Positions 4,485 to 40,610 of a stretch of DNA of 41,803 nt are shown here, in pieces (position 1 is the first letter of the stretch; the number at the start of each line of letters is the position of its first letter). Position numbers and translations under genes: made by a program. Under the pieces are notes generated by a model. It worked only from the letters and a program-made list of their open reading frames with translations, ran no database searches and was not told the DNA's origin. This DNA is from Actinomycetota bacterium (lineage in GTDB: Bacteria; Actinomycetota; Acidimicrobiia; Acidimicrobiales; Iamiaceae): the NCBI GenBank assembly GCA_019639095.1, contig JAHBSN010000002.1, positions 1 to 41,803 on the forward strand. Reading direction: 5' to 3'.

Positions 4485-5254
4485 GCGTGGGTCCCGCCGT
4501 CGATCCGGATGATCTCGCCGGTCATGTGCCGGCCGTCGTCGGAGGCGAGCAGCGCCACCACCGACGCCACGTCGGCGGCGTCGCCGAAGCCGGTGGGCGA
4601 CATGATGCGGCGCACGAGCTTCCCCTCGTCCTTGGTGAGGTCGTCGGGGAACTCGACGTTGTTCGTGATGCCCGAGGTGACGCTGCCGGGGGCGATGGCG
4701 TTCACCCGCACGCCCTCCTTGCAGTACTCCACGGCGAGGGTGTGGGTGAAGGCGGCGATGGCCCCCTTGGAGGAGGCGTAGGCCGCCATCCACGGGTGGC
4801 CGAAGAAGCTGCTGGTGGAGGCGGCGTTGACGATGGCGCCGCGCGACTCGATCAGGTGCGGCAGGGCGGCTCGGCACATCAGGAACGTGCCGGTGAGGTT
4901 GACGTCGATCACCCGCTTCCAGGTGTCGAGGTCGCACTCGTGGGTGCGCACGGTCTTGAGCATCCCGGCGATGTTGCACAGGGCGTCGAGGCGGCCCCAG
5001 CGCTCCACGGCGGCGGCGATCGTGCCGGCGGCCTGGTCCTCGTCGCTGATGTCGGCCACGTGGGCCACCACCTCGCCGCCCGGCGCGGCGCCGGCGAGGG
5101 CCTCGGCCACGGAGGCGTCGAGCGCGTCGGCGGTGATGTCCGAGGCCAGCACCTTGGCGCCCTCGGCGGCGAGCCGGGCGGCGGTGGCCCGGCCGATCCC
5201 CGAGGCGGCCCCGGTGACGATGACGACGCGATCGGTGAAGCGTTCCAGCGGCAT
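4481..5254 (-). CDS. SDR family NAD(P)-dependent oxidoreductase
   Basis: A 257-residue classical short-chain dehydrogenase: cofactor loop TGAASGIG at residues 14-21, acidic residue after strand beta2 (LASDI), NIAG at about 93-96, active-site Ser in NAASTSSF, YASSKG as YxxxK, and the PGSV stretch. The Asp at the end of beta2 favours NAD+ over NADP+. First gene of a three-gene operon with the LLM oxidoreductase and a lipoprotein. The ATG at 5254 lies 8 nt after a TAGGGT -10 box on the minus strand, so the mRNA is probably leaderless; a KstR-like inverted repeat adjoins that -10. The substrate is likely an alcohol or 3-hydroxyacyl/steroid compound, inferred only. Confidence 0.92.
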   Translation of the reverse strand: MPLERFTDRVVIVTGAASGIGRATAARLAAEGAKVLASDITADALDASVAEALAGAAPGGEVVAHVADISDEDQAAGTIAAAVERWGRLDALCNIAGMLKTVRTHECDLDTWKRVIDVNLTGTFLMCRAALPHLIESRGAIVNAASTSSFFGHPWMAAYASSKGAIAAFTHTLAVEYCKEGVRVNAIAPGSVTSGITNNVEFPDDLTKDEGKLVRRIMSPTGFGDAADVASVVALLASDDGRHMTGEIIRIDGGTHA

Positions 5255-5262
5255 GGGCCGTG

Positions 5263-5280
5263 ACCCTAGAACACGTTCCA
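5263..5280 (-). promoter_or_regulatory. Leaderless SDR promoter with KstR-like operator
   Basis: On the minus strand the -10 TAGGGT (5268-5263) is 8 nt before the SDR ATG. Directly upstream, 5267-5280 reads TAGAACACGTTCCA on +. This fits the TNNAACNNGTTNNA consensus of the TetR repressor KstR, which controls cholesterol catabolism in mycobacteria and rhodococci. The match is seen; binding by a KstR homologue is inferred. Confidence 0.6.
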
Positions 5281-5325
5281 GTTCGGCCGCGCCCGGCGCT
5301 CCGTGCCCGGAGGACGGCGGTGGAC

Positions 5326-5331
5326 TAGGTT
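5326..5331 (+). promoter_or_regulatory. -10 box for ahcY leader
   Basis: TAGGTT fits the TANNNT -10 pattern used throughout this window. It would start transcription near 5338 and give a leader of about 125 nt. Confidence 0.45.
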
Positions 5332-5334
5332 GGT

Positions 5335-5440
5335 CACCGGCCTTCGGGCCGGTGGGCTGTCATGGGTGAGCCAGCGGGCTCCAGCCCCACAACTCGAACG
5401 CTTCGTCCGGTCGCCTCGGCGCGCCCGGCCGAGCACCCAT
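5335..5440 (+). promoter_or_regulatory. Structured 5' leader of ahcY, possible riboswitch
   Basis: Three helices lie between the -10 and the ribosome-binding site. (1) An 8-bp perfect stem with a TTCG tetraloop (5335-5342/5347-5354). (2) A 7-bp stem ATGGGTG/CACCCAT (5362-5368/5434-5440) closing a junction. (3) Inside it, CTCGGC/GCCGAG (5415-5420/5428-5433), which abuts the closing stem so the two could stack. GGGCT occurs twice (5354-5358 and 5376-5380) and both copies can pair with AGCCC at 5383-5387, which gives alternative folds. It does not match the SAH or SAM-IV consensus as I know them. Confidence 0.5.
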
Positions 5441-5463
5441 CATCGACGCGTGGAGGAGACCCC

Positions 5464-6912
<1,449 letters not shown>

Positions 6913-34812: not shown

Positions 34813-34837
34813 CGGACGGGTCTCGAGGGGAGCTGGT

Positions 34838-36733
34838 TTGCCGTCCACGTCTGAACGTCTCAAGGACCTCCGCGGCCGTGCCATGAGCAGCACGCCCCGG
34901 TACTGGGCCACCAAGACCGTCCGGCAGGCGTGGGCCCGGCTCCGACCCACGGTGCTCGGCGTGGTGGCGTCGCTGGTCACCGTCTACCGCCTGACCCTGC
35001 GCCGCCCGATCTTCATCGGGGTCACCGGCAGCGTGGGCAAGACCACCACCAAGGAGATGATCGCCACCGTCCTCGCCAGCCGGTGGACCGGCTACAAGAG
35101 CCCGGGCACCAACAACGTCCTGAAGGCGGCGGTGCTGTCGGTGCTGCGCACCAAGCGGGACTTCGGCTACTGCGTGCAGGAGTTCGGCGTGGGCGGCCTC
35201 GGCGAGGCCGTGCCGGTCGAGAAGCAGTTCCGCATGTTCAAGCCGCAGATCGCCGTGGTCACCACGGTGGGCGACGACCACATCGACGCCCACGGCAGCC
35301 GCGAGGCGATCGCCGCCGCCAAGGGGAAGCTCGTGGCCGCCATCCCGGCGTCGGGAACGGCCGTCCTCAACGCCGACGACCACCTCGTGCTCGCCATGCG
35401 GACCCGCAGCAGGGGCCGGGTGCTCACCTACGGCCTCTCGCCCGACGCGGAGGTCCGGGGCGACGACATCCGCTCGGACTGGCCGAACCGCCTCTCCCTC
35501 ACGGTGTCCCACGGGGGCGAGTCGGTGCGGGTGCAGACCCAGTTCTGCGGCGCCCACCTCGTGACGAGCGTGCTGGCCAGCATCGCCGTGGGCCGCGCCG
35601 CCGGCCTCGGGCTGCAGGAGGCGGCCACGGCGATCGAGGGGCTGGCGCCGGTGCCCGGTCGGATGTGCCCGGTGGAGAGCCCCGACGGTGTCACGTTCAT
35701 CCAGGACGACGTGAAGGCGCCGGTGTGGACCTTCCCTCCGGCGCTCGAGTTCCTCCGCGAGGCCGACGCCAAGCGCACGATCATCATCGTCGGCAACCTG
35801 TCGGACTACCAGGAGCCCCTGGACCCCACCTACGCCAAGGTCGCCCGGGCGGCGCGGGACTCGGCCGACTTCGTGTTCTTCGTCGGGCGCTGGGCCACCC
35901 GAGCTCTGAAGGCCAAGCGCAGCCCCGACGACGAGTCGGTGCGGGCGTTCGTGACCGTCGACCACATCAACGACTTCCTGCGCGACTTCCTCGAGCCCGG
36001 CGACCTCGTCCTGATCAAGGGCTCGCACCCCGACCGCCTCGGCGGCATCATCCGGGCCCGCCTCGACCAGGCTCGGGCCGCGGCCACCGGTCTCCCGGCG
36101 TCGTCCGCACCCGCCCCCGCCGTCGAGAGCGAGGACCCGGTGGAGGTCCCCGCCGTGGCGCAGGGGATCGGCCAGCTCGTGGTGGGGCTCGGGAACCCCG
36201 GCGAGCGCTACCTCGGGACGCCGCACAACGTCGGCCAGCAGGCGCTCGACCACCTGGCCCAGACGCTCGGGCTCGCCTGGTCCGAGGAGGACTTCGGGCT
36301 GGTGGCCCGCACCGAGGTGCTGGGCCAGGACGTGCTGCTCGTGAAGGCGGGGGTGGAGATGAACCGCACCGGCCCCTGGATGCGGGAGCTGGCCGACCAG
36401 GCCGGGTTGCGAGACCGTGACTGCCTCTTCGTGCACGACGACATCAACCTCAAGCCCGGCGTGGTCCGCAACCGGATGGGCGGCAGCTCCGGCGGGCACA
36501 AGGGCGCGCAATCGATCGTGGCCGCGTTCCAGAGCGAGGACGTGCGCAAGGTGAAGATCGGCGTCGGGTTGCCCCCCGAGGGCACCACCGTCACCCAGTA
36601 CGTCCTCTCGCCAGCGAAGGGCGAGCTGGCCGAGACCATGGACAAGGCGTCGGCCCAGGCCGCGAGCCGGGTGATGGACATGCTCAAGCTCCACGTCAAG
36701 GAGGCCGAGGCCGCCGTCGAGGACCGCGGGTGA
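34838..36733 (+). CDS. Fusion of a Mur-ligase family enzyme with peptidyl-tRNA hydrolase
   Basis: A single uninterrupted 631-residue frame joining two enzymes. Residues 1-410: MurF-like ATP-dependent amide ligase with P-loop GVTGSVGKTTTKEM (61-74), SPGTNNV, VTTVGDDHIDAHGS, AVLNADD, VPGRMCPVE and a C-terminal domain ending LVLIKGSHPDR. The MurF N-terminal UDP-MurNAc-binding domain is absent and replaced by a ~60-residue segment with one hydrophobic stretch (about 38-50). An Ala/Pro/Glu linker (411-443) leads to a full-length peptidyl-tRNA hydrolase (444-631): GLGNPGERY (Asn453), PHNVG (His463), MNRTG (Asn509), HDDINL (Asp534). The active-site Asn of GHNG is Lys555 (GGHKGAQ). TTG at 34838 has a good ribosome-binding site; ATG at 34883 is the alternative. 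No separate pth is in the window. Confidence 0.9.
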   Translation: MPSTSERLKDLRGRAMSSTPRYWATKTVRQAWARLRPTVLGVVASLVTVYRLTLRRPIFIGVTGSVGKTTTKEMIATVLASRWTGYKSPGTNNVLKAAVLSVLRTKRDFGYCVQEFGVGGLGEAVPVEKQFRMFKPQIAVVTTVGDDHIDAHGSREAIAAAKGKLVAAIPASGTAVLNADDHLVLAMRTRSRGRVLTYGLSPDAEVRGDDIRSDWPNRLSLTVSHGGESVRVQTQFCGAHLVTSVLASIAVGRAAGLGLQEAATAIEGLAPVPGRMCPVESPDGVTFIQDDVKAPVWTFPPALEFLREADAKRTIIIVGNLSDYQEPLDPTYAKVARAARDSADFVFFVGRWATRALKAKRSPDDESVRAFVTVDHINDFLRDFLEPGDLVLIKGSHPDRLGGIIRARLDQARAAATGLPASSAPAPAVESEDPVEVPAVAQGIGQLVVGLGNPGERYLGTPHNVGQQALDHLAQTLGLAWSEEDFGLVARTEVLGQDVLLVKAGVEMNRTGPWMRELADQAGLRDRDCLFVHDDINLKPGVVRNRMGGSSGGHKGAQSIVAAFQSEDVRKVKIGVGLPPEGTTVTQYVLSPAKGELAETMDKASAQAASRVMDMLKLHVKEAEAAVEDRG

Positions 36734-37212
36734 CCGGCCGTCGCCTCCTCGCCGTGGCGCTGGCGGCAGCGGTGCTCGTCGGGTGCGGCGGCTCCTCGGG
36801 CGAGTCGCCGGCCGAGGCGACCACCACCATTCCCGGCACCAGCAGCAGCACCAGCACCAGCACGACCACCGCCGGCGCTGAGCCGATCGACCCCGGCAAC
36901 CCCCTCCTCAGCGGGCTCGTGGCGGCCCGGGAGCAGGTGGCCGACCCGGCGAACGCCGAACGGGTCGCCGCGGCGCTCGACGAGCTCGACGCTGCCACCG
37001 GGATCGCGTGGACGCCGGACATGCTCGCCGTGCTCGGCGCGTCCTACTGCAACGACTGGGACCGCCCCGCCGGCGAGGTGGGCCTGGAGCTCACCGAGGC
37101 CGGGCGGGCCGATTGGGCGGCGGCGGTCGGACCCCTGTTGTCGCTCTCGGCCGACCAGGCCGCGGCCTCGGTCCGCACCGACGCCGGCGTCGACTTCCGG
37201 GTCTGCCAGTGA
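36730..37212 (+). CDS. Small putative lipoprotein 1
   Basis: A 160-residue exported protein: RRLLAVALAAAVLVGC gives a signal peptide with lipobox (Cys about 19), then a Thr/Ser-rich spacer (about residues 30-48) and a mostly helical domain of ~110 residues with two Cys (YCNDW and the penultimate Cys) that may pair. GTG at 36730 overlaps the stop of the fusion gene (GTGA), so it is translationally coupled to it, a surprising link between a cytoplasmic ligase/Pth and an exported protein. Family not recognised. Confidence 0.75.
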   Translation: MTGRRLLAVALAAAVLVGCGGSSGESPAEATTTIPGTSSSTSTSTTTAGAEPIDPGNPLLSGLVAAREQVADPANAERVAAALDELDAATGIAWTPDMLAVLGASYCNDWDRPAGEVGLELTEAGRADWAAAVGPLLSLSADQAAASVRTDAGVDFRVCQ

Positions 37213-37258
37213 CCGGCACCAGCGGCCAGGATGGAGCGGTGCACCACGGGAGGAACCG

Positions 37259-37768
37259 ATGAACCGAACCCACCGCCGACGGGGCCTGCTGGTGGCCGTC
37301 GCGCTGATCGCCGGAGCCGGGCTGGTCGGATGCTCCTCCGACGACGGCGACGCCACGAGCGCCTCCACCACCACCACGTCCGCTCCCGCCACCACGGAGA
37401 CCGAGCCGGCCTCCGAGCCCGGCGACACCACCAGCACCACGGTGGACTCCGATGGTTCCGGCACCGACGTCGAGACGGTGGACCTGCTCGAGTTCCTCCA
37501 GGACGAGGACGCCGCCATCGGCGACCTCTTCGACTGGAACACGGGCGCCGGGGTGATCGCCATCACCTACGTGGGCGTGCAGACGGTGCAGCTCTACAAC
37601 GGCGGCGACCTCGATGCCGAGACCGCACTGGCGGCCTGCGAGCTGGCGTCGGACTACGTCTTCCCCATCGACGACGGCGCCGCCATCGAGGTGCTCGCCG
37701 GGGAGTACCCCGACGGCACGGTCCTCGCGTCGGTGCAGGGCATCGACGGCACCTGCGCCGCCGCCTGA
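37259..37768 (+). CDS. Small putative lipoprotein 2
   Basis: A 169-residue exported protein: basic start, hydrophobic core and lipobox LVGC (Cys about 25), then a Thr/Ser/Glu-rich spacer (residues 28-70) and a compact domain of ~95 residues with two Cys (AACELAS and GTCAAA). The domain has no motif I can name. ATG at 37259 has GGGAGGA about 6 nt upstream. It resembles the preceding lipoprotein in layout (lipobox, TTT/SST spacer, Cys pair) but not obviously in sequence. Its 3' end carries a short tandem duplication spanning the stop codon. Confidence 0.75.
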   Translation: MNRTHRRRGLLVAVALIAGAGLVGCSSDDGDATSASTTTTSAPATTETEPASEPGDTTSTTVDSDGSGTDVETVDLLEFLQDEDAAIGDLFDWNTGAGVIAITYVGVQTVQLYNGGDLDAETALAACELASDYVFPIDDGAAIEVLAGEYPDGTVLASVQGIDGTCAAA

Positions 37769-37789
37769 GGCGGCACCTGCGCCGCCGCC
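37748..37789. repeat. Short tandem duplication across a stop codon
   Basis: An 18-bp unit, GGCACCTGCGCCGCCGCC, occurs at 37748-37765 and 37772-37789 (period 24). The first copy ends the lipoprotein-2 gene and its stop; the second lies just outside. Confidence 0.8.
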
Positions 37790-37828
37790 GTCCCGGTTCA
37801 CCCCACGCGAGCGCGGGTACCCCCGTGC

Positions 37829-38311
37829 ATGGAACGCAGACCGTCCGCCGTCCGCCGCACGCTCGTCCCGGCCTTGGTCCTGCTCCTCGTGGCCACCGCC
37901 GCGCTCGCCGCGTGCGGCTCGAGCGAGGATCCGGGGTTCGACCAGGCCGATCCCGGTGCGGTCGGAGCCGGCCAGCCCTTCGCCGGGCGGTTCGACGACC
38001 TGCCGCTCCCGGCTCGCTCCGATCCCATCGGCAGCCGCAGCGAGCAGGGCGGCGTGGTGACCCAGAGCTACGAGGTGTCCGGCAGCACGCGAGAGGACGT
38101 CATGGCGTTCTACGAGGGAGCCCTGCCCGACCTGGGGTGGGAGGTCCTGAAGGCGCCCAAGCCGTCGGGCACGTCGACGACGCAGGCCGAGTGGACCACG
38201 GGCGACCTCATCCTGCGCATCACCGCCAACGGTGCATCGGGTCTCGGTGGGGACCACGACCCGACCGAAGCGGTGCGCACCCAGTACAGCCTCATGCTCC
38301 GGGAGGCCTGA
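37829..38311 (+). CDS. Small putative lipoprotein 3
   Basis: A 160-residue exported protein with an Arg-rich start, hydrophobic core and lipobox LAAC (Cys about 29). The mature domain holds QSYEVSGSTREDVMAFYEGALPDLGWEVL (about residues 76-104), a pattern seen in small exported proteins annotated as bacterial lipoproteins of unknown function, and WTTGDLILRITANG. ATG at 37829 with a possible TACCCC -10 (37818-37823) close by; no strong ribosome-binding site, so it may be leaderless or start at GTG 37825 in another frame. Independent of the previous genes by a 60-bp gap. Confidence 0.72.
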   Translation: MERRPSAVRRTLVPALVLLLVATAALAACGSSEDPGFDQADPGAVGAGQPFAGRFDDLPLPARSDPIGSRSEQGGVVTQSYEVSGSTREDVMAFYEGALPDLGWEVLKAPKPSGTSTTQAEWTTGDLILRITANGASGLGGDHDPTEAVRTQYSLMLREA

Positions 38312-38405: not shown

Positions 38406-40610
38406 ATGAAGCGTGCGATGTTCGCAGCGGCCATCTCGATGGCGGCGGTCGGTGGCGTGCCGGTGCTGGTGGCGGCGCCCAGCGGGGCCCAGGCCGTCCC
38501 GGTGCCCCAGGTGCGGCCGAGCCAGAGCCCCACCGCCACCGACCAGATCATCGTCCGGTTCGCCGGCCAGCCCGATGCCGGCGCGGTGCCCGATCCGGCC
38601 GGCGGCTCGGCCCAGGTCCGCCGCCAGCTCGGCGACGGGTCCTGGGTGGTCAAGCTCGACGACCGCTACGCCCCGGCCGACGCGGCGGCGATCGCCGCCG
38701 TCTACGCGCGGCAGCCGGGCGTGAAGTACGCCGAGCCCGACACCCGCCAGTTCGCCACCGTCGTCCCGAACGACACCCGCTACCCCGACCAGTGGGACCT
38801 CCAGCCGGTGACCCCGAACACCAGCTACGGCGCCAACCTCCCGGCGGCGTGGGACATCACCACCGGATCGGCCAGCCAGGTGGTGGCCGTGGTGGACACC
38901 GGCTACCTGAACCACGCCGACCTCGCCGGCCGGTTCGTCCCGGGCTACGACATGGTGAGCGACGCCCAGATCGGCAACGACGGCGACGGCCGCGACGCGA
39001 ACGCGCTCGACCCGGGGGACTGGATCACCTCGGCCGAGAACTCCTCGGGCTTCTTCGCCGGGTGCGGCGTCAGCAACAGCAGCTGGCATGGCACCCACGT
39101 GGCCGGCACCATCGGCGCCGCGTCGAACAACGCGACGGGCGTGGCGGGCATCAACTGGAACGCCAAGATCCTGCCGGTGCGCGTGCTGGGCAAGTGCGGC
39201 GGCTACAGCAGCGACATCGCCGACGGCATGCGCTGGGCCGCCGGGCTCACGGTGTCGGGCGTGCCCGCCAACCCCAACCCGGCCAAGGTGATCAACCTGA
39301 GCCTGGGCGGGTCGGGAGCCTGCAGCACCACCTACCAGAACGCCGTGAACGCGGTGACCGCAGCCGGCTCGATGCTCGTGATCGCCGCCGGCAACTCCAA
39401 CTCCGACGCCGCCAACTTCCAGCCGGGCAACTGCGCGGGCGTGGTGACCGTGGCCGCCACCGGTCGGGCCGGGAACCGGGCCACGTACAGCAACTACGGC
39501 AGCACCGTGGAGATCGCCGCCCCGGGCGGCAACCTCTCGGGCGGGCTCGACACCGGCATCCTGTCCACGCTCAACACGGGCACCACGAGCCCGGTGGCCG
39601 ACGCCTACGTGGCCTACCAGGGCACGAGCATGGCCGCGCCCCACGTGGCCGGCGTGGCGTCGCTCGTGTGGGCGGCGCAGCCCTCGCTGACGGCTGCGCA
39701 GGTGACGACGTTCCTCCAGATCTCGGCCACCCCGTTCAAGGCCGGGAGCACGTGCACCACGGCGATCTGCGGGCCCGGGATCCTGAACGCGGGGGCGGCG
39801 GTGGCGGCGGCCACGAGCCCGCCCTCGAGCCTGAGCGGCACGGTGCGGGACGGCAACGGCGCCGCCATCAAGGGGGCCCAGGTCCGCGTGCCCGGCAACG
39901 CCGTGGCGGTCACCGATGCGAGCGGCAGCTACTCGCTGCCCACGGTGGTCGACGGCTCCTACACGGTGCAGGCCGACGGGGCGTGCCGCGCTCCGGCGTC
40001 GCAGTCGGTGTCCATCAGCGGGCCGACGGTGCTCGACTTCACCCTGGGCATCTCTGGCGGCTGCTACGTGGACCCGGCCGCTTGGGACGCCACGTCCACG
40101 GTGCTCGCCCTGTCGGGGGACGATGCGTCGCTCGCGGTGGCCCTGCCCTTCCCGTACGCCCACGCCGGCGCCAGCTACACCACGGCCAACGTCTCCACGA
40201 ACGGCGTCGTGAACTTCCTGGCGCCCGACACGACGTACAGCAACACGGCGATCCCGAACGCCGCGGCGCCGAACGCGGCGCTGTACGGCTTCTGGGACGA
40301 CCTGATCGTCGACGGCTCGAGCTCGGTGCTCGCCGACACCTTCGGCTCCGCGCCCAACCGCCGGTTCGTGATCGAGTGGCGGAACGTGGCCCTGCTCGCC
40401 GACACCACCAAGCGGCTGAGCTTCCAGATCGTCCTGTACGAGAGCACGGCCCAGCGCGTGCGGCTCCAGTACAAGGACATCGCCGACGGCACCGCGGAGG
40501 CGGGCACGAGCGCAACGGTGGGCACCGAGAACGCGGCCGGCAACGGCGGCACCCAGGTGCTCTACAACAACGGCCTGCTCTTCGACGGGCTGAGCGTCCG
40601 GCCGAAGTGA
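38406..40610 (+). CDS. Secreted S8 (subtilisin-like) serine protease
   Basis: A 734-residue secreted protease. Signal peptide 1-30 ending SGAQA, an inhibitor-I9-like propeptide (about 45-110, DQIIVRFAG to VKYAEPD), then the catalytic domain with Asp164 (VVAVVDTG), His228 (WHGTHVAG), Asn330 (AAGNSNS) and Ser408 (YQGTSMAAPHVAG). After ~475 comes a carboxypeptidase-regulatory-like beta domain (SLSGTVRDGNGAAIKGAQV, to ~546), then a C-terminal NIDO-like/beta domain (LPFPYAHAGASYTTANVSTNGVV). Several Cys in and around the catalytic domain suggest disulfides outside the cell. ATG at 38406. A secreted FN3 protein follows 28 nt later, probably co-transcribed. Confidence 0.96.
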   Translation: MKRAMFAAAISMAAVGGVPVLVAAPSGAQAVPVPQVRPSQSPTATDQIIVRFAGQPDAGAVPDPAGGSAQVRRQLGDGSWVVKLDDRYAPADAAAIAAVYARQPGVKYAEPDTRQFATVVPNDTRYPDQWDLQPVTPNTSYGANLPAAWDITTGSASQVVAVVDTGYLNHADLAGRFVPGYDMVSDAQIGNDGDGRDANALDPGDWITSAENSSGFFAGCGVSNSSWHGTHVAGTIGAASNNATGVAGINWNAKILPVRVLGKCGGYSSDIADGMRWAAGLTVSGVPANPNPAKVINLSLGGSGACSTTYQNAVNAVTAAGSMLVIAAGNSNSDAANFQPGNCAGVVTVAATGRAGNRATYSNYGSTVEIAAPGGNLSGGLDTGILSTLNTGTTSPVADAYVAYQGTSMAAPHVAGVASLVWAAQPSLTAAQVTTFLQISATPFKAGSTCTTAICGPGILNAGAAVAAATSPPSSLSGTVRDGNGAAIKGAQVRVPGNAVAVTDASGSYSLPTVVDGSYTVQADGACRAPASQSVSISGPTVLDFTLGISGGCYVDPAAWDATSTVLALSGDDASLAVALPFPYAHAGASYTTANVSTNGVVNFLAPDTTYSNTAIPNAAAPNAALYGFWDDLIVDGSSSVLADTFGSAPNRRFVIEWRNVALLADTTKRLSFQIVLYESTAQRVRLQYKDIADGTAEAGTSATVGTENAAGNGGTQVLYNNGLLFDGLSVRPK

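Follow-up and report, generated by a model that had tools for sequence, protein, structure and literature searches.

Mur ligases joined to another enzyme are an established kind of protein: the MurF–alanine racemase and MurE–MurF fusions (PRK11930 and PRK11929) are known fusion types, and the partners there serve one known pathway. The fold of peptidyl-tRNA hydrolase (Pth), for its part, has been put to another use in CRS2, a plant chloroplast splicing factor. Mur-type ligation and peptidyl-tRNA hydrolysis are not known to be linked. Here we describe a gene that joins the two, found in a stretch of 41,803 nucleotides of DNA from a member of the Actinomycetota (the window). It resembles PRK11930 and PRK11929 in that a Mur ligase is joined to another enzyme; its partners, unlike theirs, are not known to serve one pathway. 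A sequence-only reading of the window had placed a Mur ligase and a Pth in one unbroken frame, and both Pfam and the codon pattern bear this out (Table 1). The order of the domains is Mur_ligase_M, Mur_ligase_C, a Pro/Ala-rich linker and Pept_tRNA_hydro. That reading also held the coupling of ligation and peptidyl-tRNA release to be without precedent, and we found none; nor did we find a report of a Mur ligase–Pth fusion in the literature, although this absence is weak since open-licence full texts were searched. Judged from sequence, the combination of domains would be new, and both component superfamilies are already known.

Table 1. Positions in the window of the fusion gene, its parts and the coupled downstream gene.
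Feature	Position	Strand	Remarks
Shine-Dalgarno-like GAGGGGAG	34825–34832	+	5 bases upstream of TTG start
Fusion gene (Mur-ligase core, linker, Pth domain)	34838–36733	+	631 aa, one open frame
N-terminal extension, residues 1–57	34838–35008	+	Stands where the UDP-sugar domain would be
Mur_ligase_M, residues 62–251	35021–35590	+	Pfam, E 2e-33, 116 bits (cut-off 24)
Mur_ligase_C, residues 274–397	35657–36028	+	Pfam, E 9e-11, 43 bits (cut-off 28)
DDVKAP, residues 290–295	35705–35722	+	Replaces D-x-Y-N-A-N-P of MurF; alignment
Pro/Ala-rich linker, residues 406–445	36053–36172	+	About 40 residues; sequence
Pth domain, residues 447–623	36176–36706	+	Pept_tRNA_hydro, 178/183 positions, E 6e-41
Glu507 codon	36356–36358	+	E at E. 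coli Phe66 position (substrate-stacking aromatic); alignment
Lys555 codon	36500–36502	+	K at E. coli Asn114 position; alignment
Lipoprotein gene, translationally coupled	36730–37212	+	160 aa, GTGA overlap, no Pfam family

The frame has the marks of a coding gene. Its start codon, TTG, is preceded by a ribosome-binding box, and the combination of GAGGGGAG with a TTG at this spacing occurs once in the window against 0.02 matches expected. Third-position G+C is 97–99% in the two folded domains and 93% in the linker that joins them; being high in every segment, it indicates that the whole fusion frame is coding. Codon use resembles that of the other genes of the window. A scan for promoters and terminators found nothing, and a defence role was rejected when PADLOC gave no match. 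The genome assembly is a draft of 475 contigs, which leaves some room for an artefact in which the halves were falsely joined or the contig is foreign. We regard this as very improbable, given that the frame and codon pattern run continuously across the join, through a typical linker, and that the secA of this contig, the sole copy in the genome, is 83–88% identical to full-length secA of the genus. A single-copy, genus-like secA means that the contig is native to the organism and rules out mis-binning.

The N-terminal half belongs to the Mur ligase superfamily (PF08245 and PF02875), both of whose domains score over their cut-offs and lie in order. The Mur_ligase_M part keeps the P-loop GSVGKTTT, NN, E115, H148 and K162, and the Mur_ligase_C part keeps R275 and KGS. 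The roles of these retained residues, which include the P-loop, the Mg-site Glu and the carbamylated-Lys site, are established. Since the catalytic set is kept, acyl-phosphate chemistry by the ligase half is plausible. The UDP-sugar domain was said to be missing, and indeed no Pfam match to it was obtained in the fusion, in which ∼57 residues precede the P-loop domain. AlphaFold2 predicts a long helix (residues 20–52) in this N-terminal extension, which also contains a mildly hydrophobic stretch with hydropathy up to 1.25.

The ligase half had been called MurF-like, a label that proved too narrow. What stands is the fold: AlphaFold2 gives a Mur-ligase fold at high confidence for residues ∼21–415, with MurF as the best structural matches (Z∼34). 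Against TIGR01143 (MurF), however, the fusion scores 194.9 bits, below the curated cut-off of 288.6, and the profile aligns only from its position 75. The Asn of the NANP motif, kept in nearly all MurF-type relatives that we collected, lies in the stretch that reads DDVKAP in the fusion, and the usual GxHNxxNAL of MurF is GAHLVTSVL. Hence the fusion has in common with MurF the middle and C-terminal ligase domains with their P-loop, Mg-site Glu, carbamylated-Lys site and KGS, and differs in the sub-cut-off score, the two altered motifs and the missing UDP-sugar domain. Because of the low score and the loss of both NANP and the UDP-sugar domain we dropped the MurF identity; on these sequence criteria the ligase half is a member of the Mur-ligase superfamily and not MurF.

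The nearest ligase relative found is WP_108437331.1 (P0003), a protein of 441 aa annotated as 'Mur ligase family protein' and encoded on Gemmobacter aquarius plasmid NZ_CP028919.1, where its gene neighbours are glycosyltransferases and polysaccharide pyruvyl transferase. Both proteins have a short N-terminus for the UDP-sugar domain, a GVGG motif, KAP replacing NANP and no Asn in the GxH motif. WP_108437331.1 differs in having no Pth domain, in its C-terminal Cys-containing tail and in its glycosyltransferase cluster, and identity is 31%. In the tree the two form a group, with support of 100/99, that excludes the 69 other Mur ligases. As both sit on long branches (1.14 and 2.26 changes per site), the grouping rests equally on the common motifs and the short N-terminus. 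We provisionally refer to these two proteins as KAP-type short Mur ligases, a label coined here; a two-row profile yielded no clear further member in the class among the best matches read. Surface-glycan amidation is a lead to what the ligase may do, because WP_108437331.1 sits in a polysaccharide cluster.

Other Mur ligases were also met in these searches. A separate group without the UDP-sugar domain occurs in Paenibacillaceae and Syntrophomonadaceae (L062, L071, L080, L088, L102, L107 and L116); it has tree support of 100/100 and keeps an S-A-N-P-like motif, and L116 has a CapA-like-looking gene nearby (4528–5613, minus strand). Two open frames, of 871 and 901 aa, resemble MurF–alanine racemase by sequence and come from genomes of the same order as this one (L119 in G352 and L120 in G431). 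Extra MurF copies are carried by Streptomyces plasmids (L140:3671–5182 and L142:3566–4966), one adjoining a predicted vanHOX and the other a D-Ala-D-Ala ligase and a peptidase; these paralogues sit in glycopeptide-resistance-like clusters.

Turning to the C-terminal half, the claim of a complete Pth domain is borne out by the extent of the Pfam match (Table 1). It scores 140.8 bits against PF01195 (cut-off 27) and 132.7 bits against TIGR00447 (cut-off 100), the NCBI equivalog for aminoacyl-tRNA hydrolase. Residues were numbered by the E. coli Pth sequence, which is a full match to 3vjr and 2pth. In the alignment N453, H463, N509 and D534 correspond to E. coli Asn10, His20, Asn68 and Asp93, all of them kept, and Lys555 falls where the sequence-only reading had put it. 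The Asn114 position is N in 29/29 stand-alone Pths aligned. That reading called Lys555 an altered active-site residue, which does not in itself point to a changed or lost reaction: Thermus thermophilus Pth is active with Arg103 at this position, Arg103→Ala markedly reduces its kcat/Km, and some other thermophile Pths are also basic here (PMC11994314). The fusion and the Thermus enzyme both have a basic residue here; the latter, unlike the fusion, is a stand-alone housekeeping protein. Lys555 is therefore weak evidence of an altered reaction and is compatible with catalysis.

A second substitution, absent from the earlier reading, is Glu507. The residue that it replaces, Phe66, helps to stack substrate in E. 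coli Pth (PMC11202043). This position is Tyr, Phe or Trp in 29/29 stand-alone Pths aligned, and no precedent for E was seen among them. Moreover, the branch that leads to the fusion Pth measures 4.14 changes per site, compared with a median of 0.18. Glu507 and this very long branch argue more for divergence than Lys555 does. Both substituted residues are at cleft positions and could pair. As for the origin of the domain, a sister relation to the stand-alone Pth of this genome is weakly rejected (p 0.035), and a position inside the class is not (p 0.084). Compared with bacterial Pth1 (PF01195 and TIGR00447), then, the domain has the fold, the equivalog score and the equivalents of N10, H20, N68 and D93 in common, and differs in its attached ligase, its status as a second genomic copy, Glu at 66, Lys at 114 and its long branch.

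In the full-length AlphaFold2 model the Pth half is unreliable because the alignment carried one Pth row, and we refolded it alone. The result is a Pth fold with Z 26.6 to M. tuberculosis Pth, so that structure prediction, proposed earlier as a check, returned both expected folds. The model is as close to CRS2 (1ryb; Z 26.1, r.m.s.d. 1.6) as to true Pths. This match, together with the two cleft changes and the very long branch, is what would be expected if the Pth domain were a non-enzymatic, CRS2-like adapter that binds RNA or another ligand and places the ligase. The long branch could indeed also reflect lost catalysis. A common fold says nothing on function, however, and CRS2 is a plant protein without a ligase domain. 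All four core residues are retained, and T. thermophilus Pth is active with a basic residue in place of Asn114 (PMC11994314). On balance we judge an adapter role to be distinctly unlikely.

The fusion is an additional copy of both of its components. The sequence-only reading had considered that it might supply the only Pth, which is not so: the genome has a stand-alone Pth (contig C192, 200 bits) and a stand-alone full MurF (contig C447, 378 bits; cut-off 289). By homology the fusion is paralogous to both and accessory to them, and it should be dispensable for housekeeping, the MurF and Pth reactions being covered elsewhere in the genome. With housekeeping covered by the stand-alone genes, the fusion is free to specialise. 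The stand-alone Pth (L001:1489–2049, minus strand) has substitutions of its own: its motif is AGNNG, with Asn at the position of His113, in place of the usual GGHNG or AGHNG, and residues 67–68 are Tyr-Asn instead of Met-Asn. T. thermophilus Pth likewise has Asn at the His113 site (PMC11994314).

A second Pth of the ordinary kind might simply have become linked to a short Mur ligase, with the halves acting on separate substrates and no mechanistic meaning to the join. Retention of the catalytic residues in both halves and a Pth score over the equivalog cut-off fit such a chance fusion, as does the Pro/Ala-rich linker, which permits independent domains; a predicted helix (402–417) runs into its first residues, and pLDDT is low beyond it. 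The Pth part has, however, diverged far more than any stand-alone Pth sampled, an ordinary spare Pth would be expected to have kept the cleft aromatic that E507 replaces, and a stand-alone Pth is already present in the genome. A join by chance is thus a possible explanation, if an unlikely one.

Searches for a second fusion covered samples of the genus (12 genomes), family (24), class (395), phylum (396) and relatives (61), which overlap and together comprise ∼770 different genomes of the phylum. None contained one, and the survey of Acidimicrobiia proposed earlier thus places the fusion in this genome only, among those sampled. Neither was a second fusion present among the at least 590 pattern matches listed from 84,980 species genomes, a list filled by ordinary MurF, or in the viral contigs, phages and plasmids searched. 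In a census of the class, Pth was present in 280/296 genomes, and a second strong Pth occurred in this genome alone among the 296; the others with a match had one Pth each, apart from the genome described next. One further genome (G337; completeness 93%) has two weak, partial-looking Pth matches (best E 3e-23, where Pths of the class usually reach E 1e-47 or better), possibly because the gene is broken or divided by a contig break.

Because the fusion is found in one genome only, selection on it is not measurable. Its restriction to a single genome, and a coupled lipoprotein that is likewise an orphan, would suit a decaying or transient chimera without selected function in one lineage. We consider this improbable: the frame is full-length with high third-position G+C throughout and codon use typical of the window, the ribosome-binding box is good, and the catalytic sets are retained.

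Our tentative preference, held at somewhat less than even confidence, is for a specialised amide ligase with a diverged Pth domain that would provide or edit its substrate, an N-blocked aminoacyl or peptidyl compound, the whole being accessory and lineage-specific. The N-terminal half would be an ATP-dependent amide ligase that no longer recognises UDP-MurNAc, turning the carboxylate of a small non-murein substrate into an acyl phosphate and coupling it to an amine. The other, C-terminal half would be a strongly diverged, probably still catalytic, Pth-fold esterase with a substrate cleft reshaped by Glu507 and Lys555. It would hydrolyse an N-blocked aminoacyl or short peptidyl ester, bound to tRNA or to a tRNA mimic, and the freed carboxylic acid would feed the ligase half, or a misloaded acid would be cleared. 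The chemistry of the two halves fits, in that a carboxylic acid is what Pth releases and what a Mur ligase activates. Retention of the catalytic sets of both domains speaks for this amide-ligase reading, as do the equivalog score of the Pth domain, the compatibility of Lys555 with activity, the stand-alone copies that cover housekeeping, and the kinship of the ligase half with WP_108437331.1, and we infer that both halves are active in one common pathway leading to an envelope or exported product. Against it stand the orphan lipoprotein, the lack of a neighbour that names a pathway, the distance of the closest ligase relative (31% identity, long branches), the restriction to one genome, and the very long branch of the Pth domain.

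A more specific version is a tRNA-coupled amide-bond enzyme, in which Pth would free a short N-blocked peptide or an N-blocked amino acid from tRNA and the ligase would re-activate its carboxylate with ATP and join it to an amine. This is a long shot. If true, an acid made by the ribosome or on tRNA would feed Mur-type ligation, and if both halves share one substrate this would open a new path by which tRNA-bound acids become amides. Even otherwise, the gene draws attention to Mur ligases that have no UDP-sugar domain and an altered active-site motif, and to a Pth domain released from housekeeping by a second copy.

The genes downstream offer no clue to a pathway, and the same holds for every neighbour. 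The fusion stop codon overlaps the GTG start of the lipoprotein gene by 4 bases (GTGA), confirming the coupling that had been noted from sequence. The lipoprotein had also been taken to point to the envelope, and this pointer is weak: in the genomes of the family its relatives comprise only lipobox- or signal-peptide-like and low-complexity matches. It is the first of three tandem small lipoprotein-like genes in the window (36730–38311; starts at 36730, 37259 and 37829), none of which has a credible Pfam family. Next comes a subtilase (38406–40610) that carries a carboxypeptidase-regulatory-like domain.
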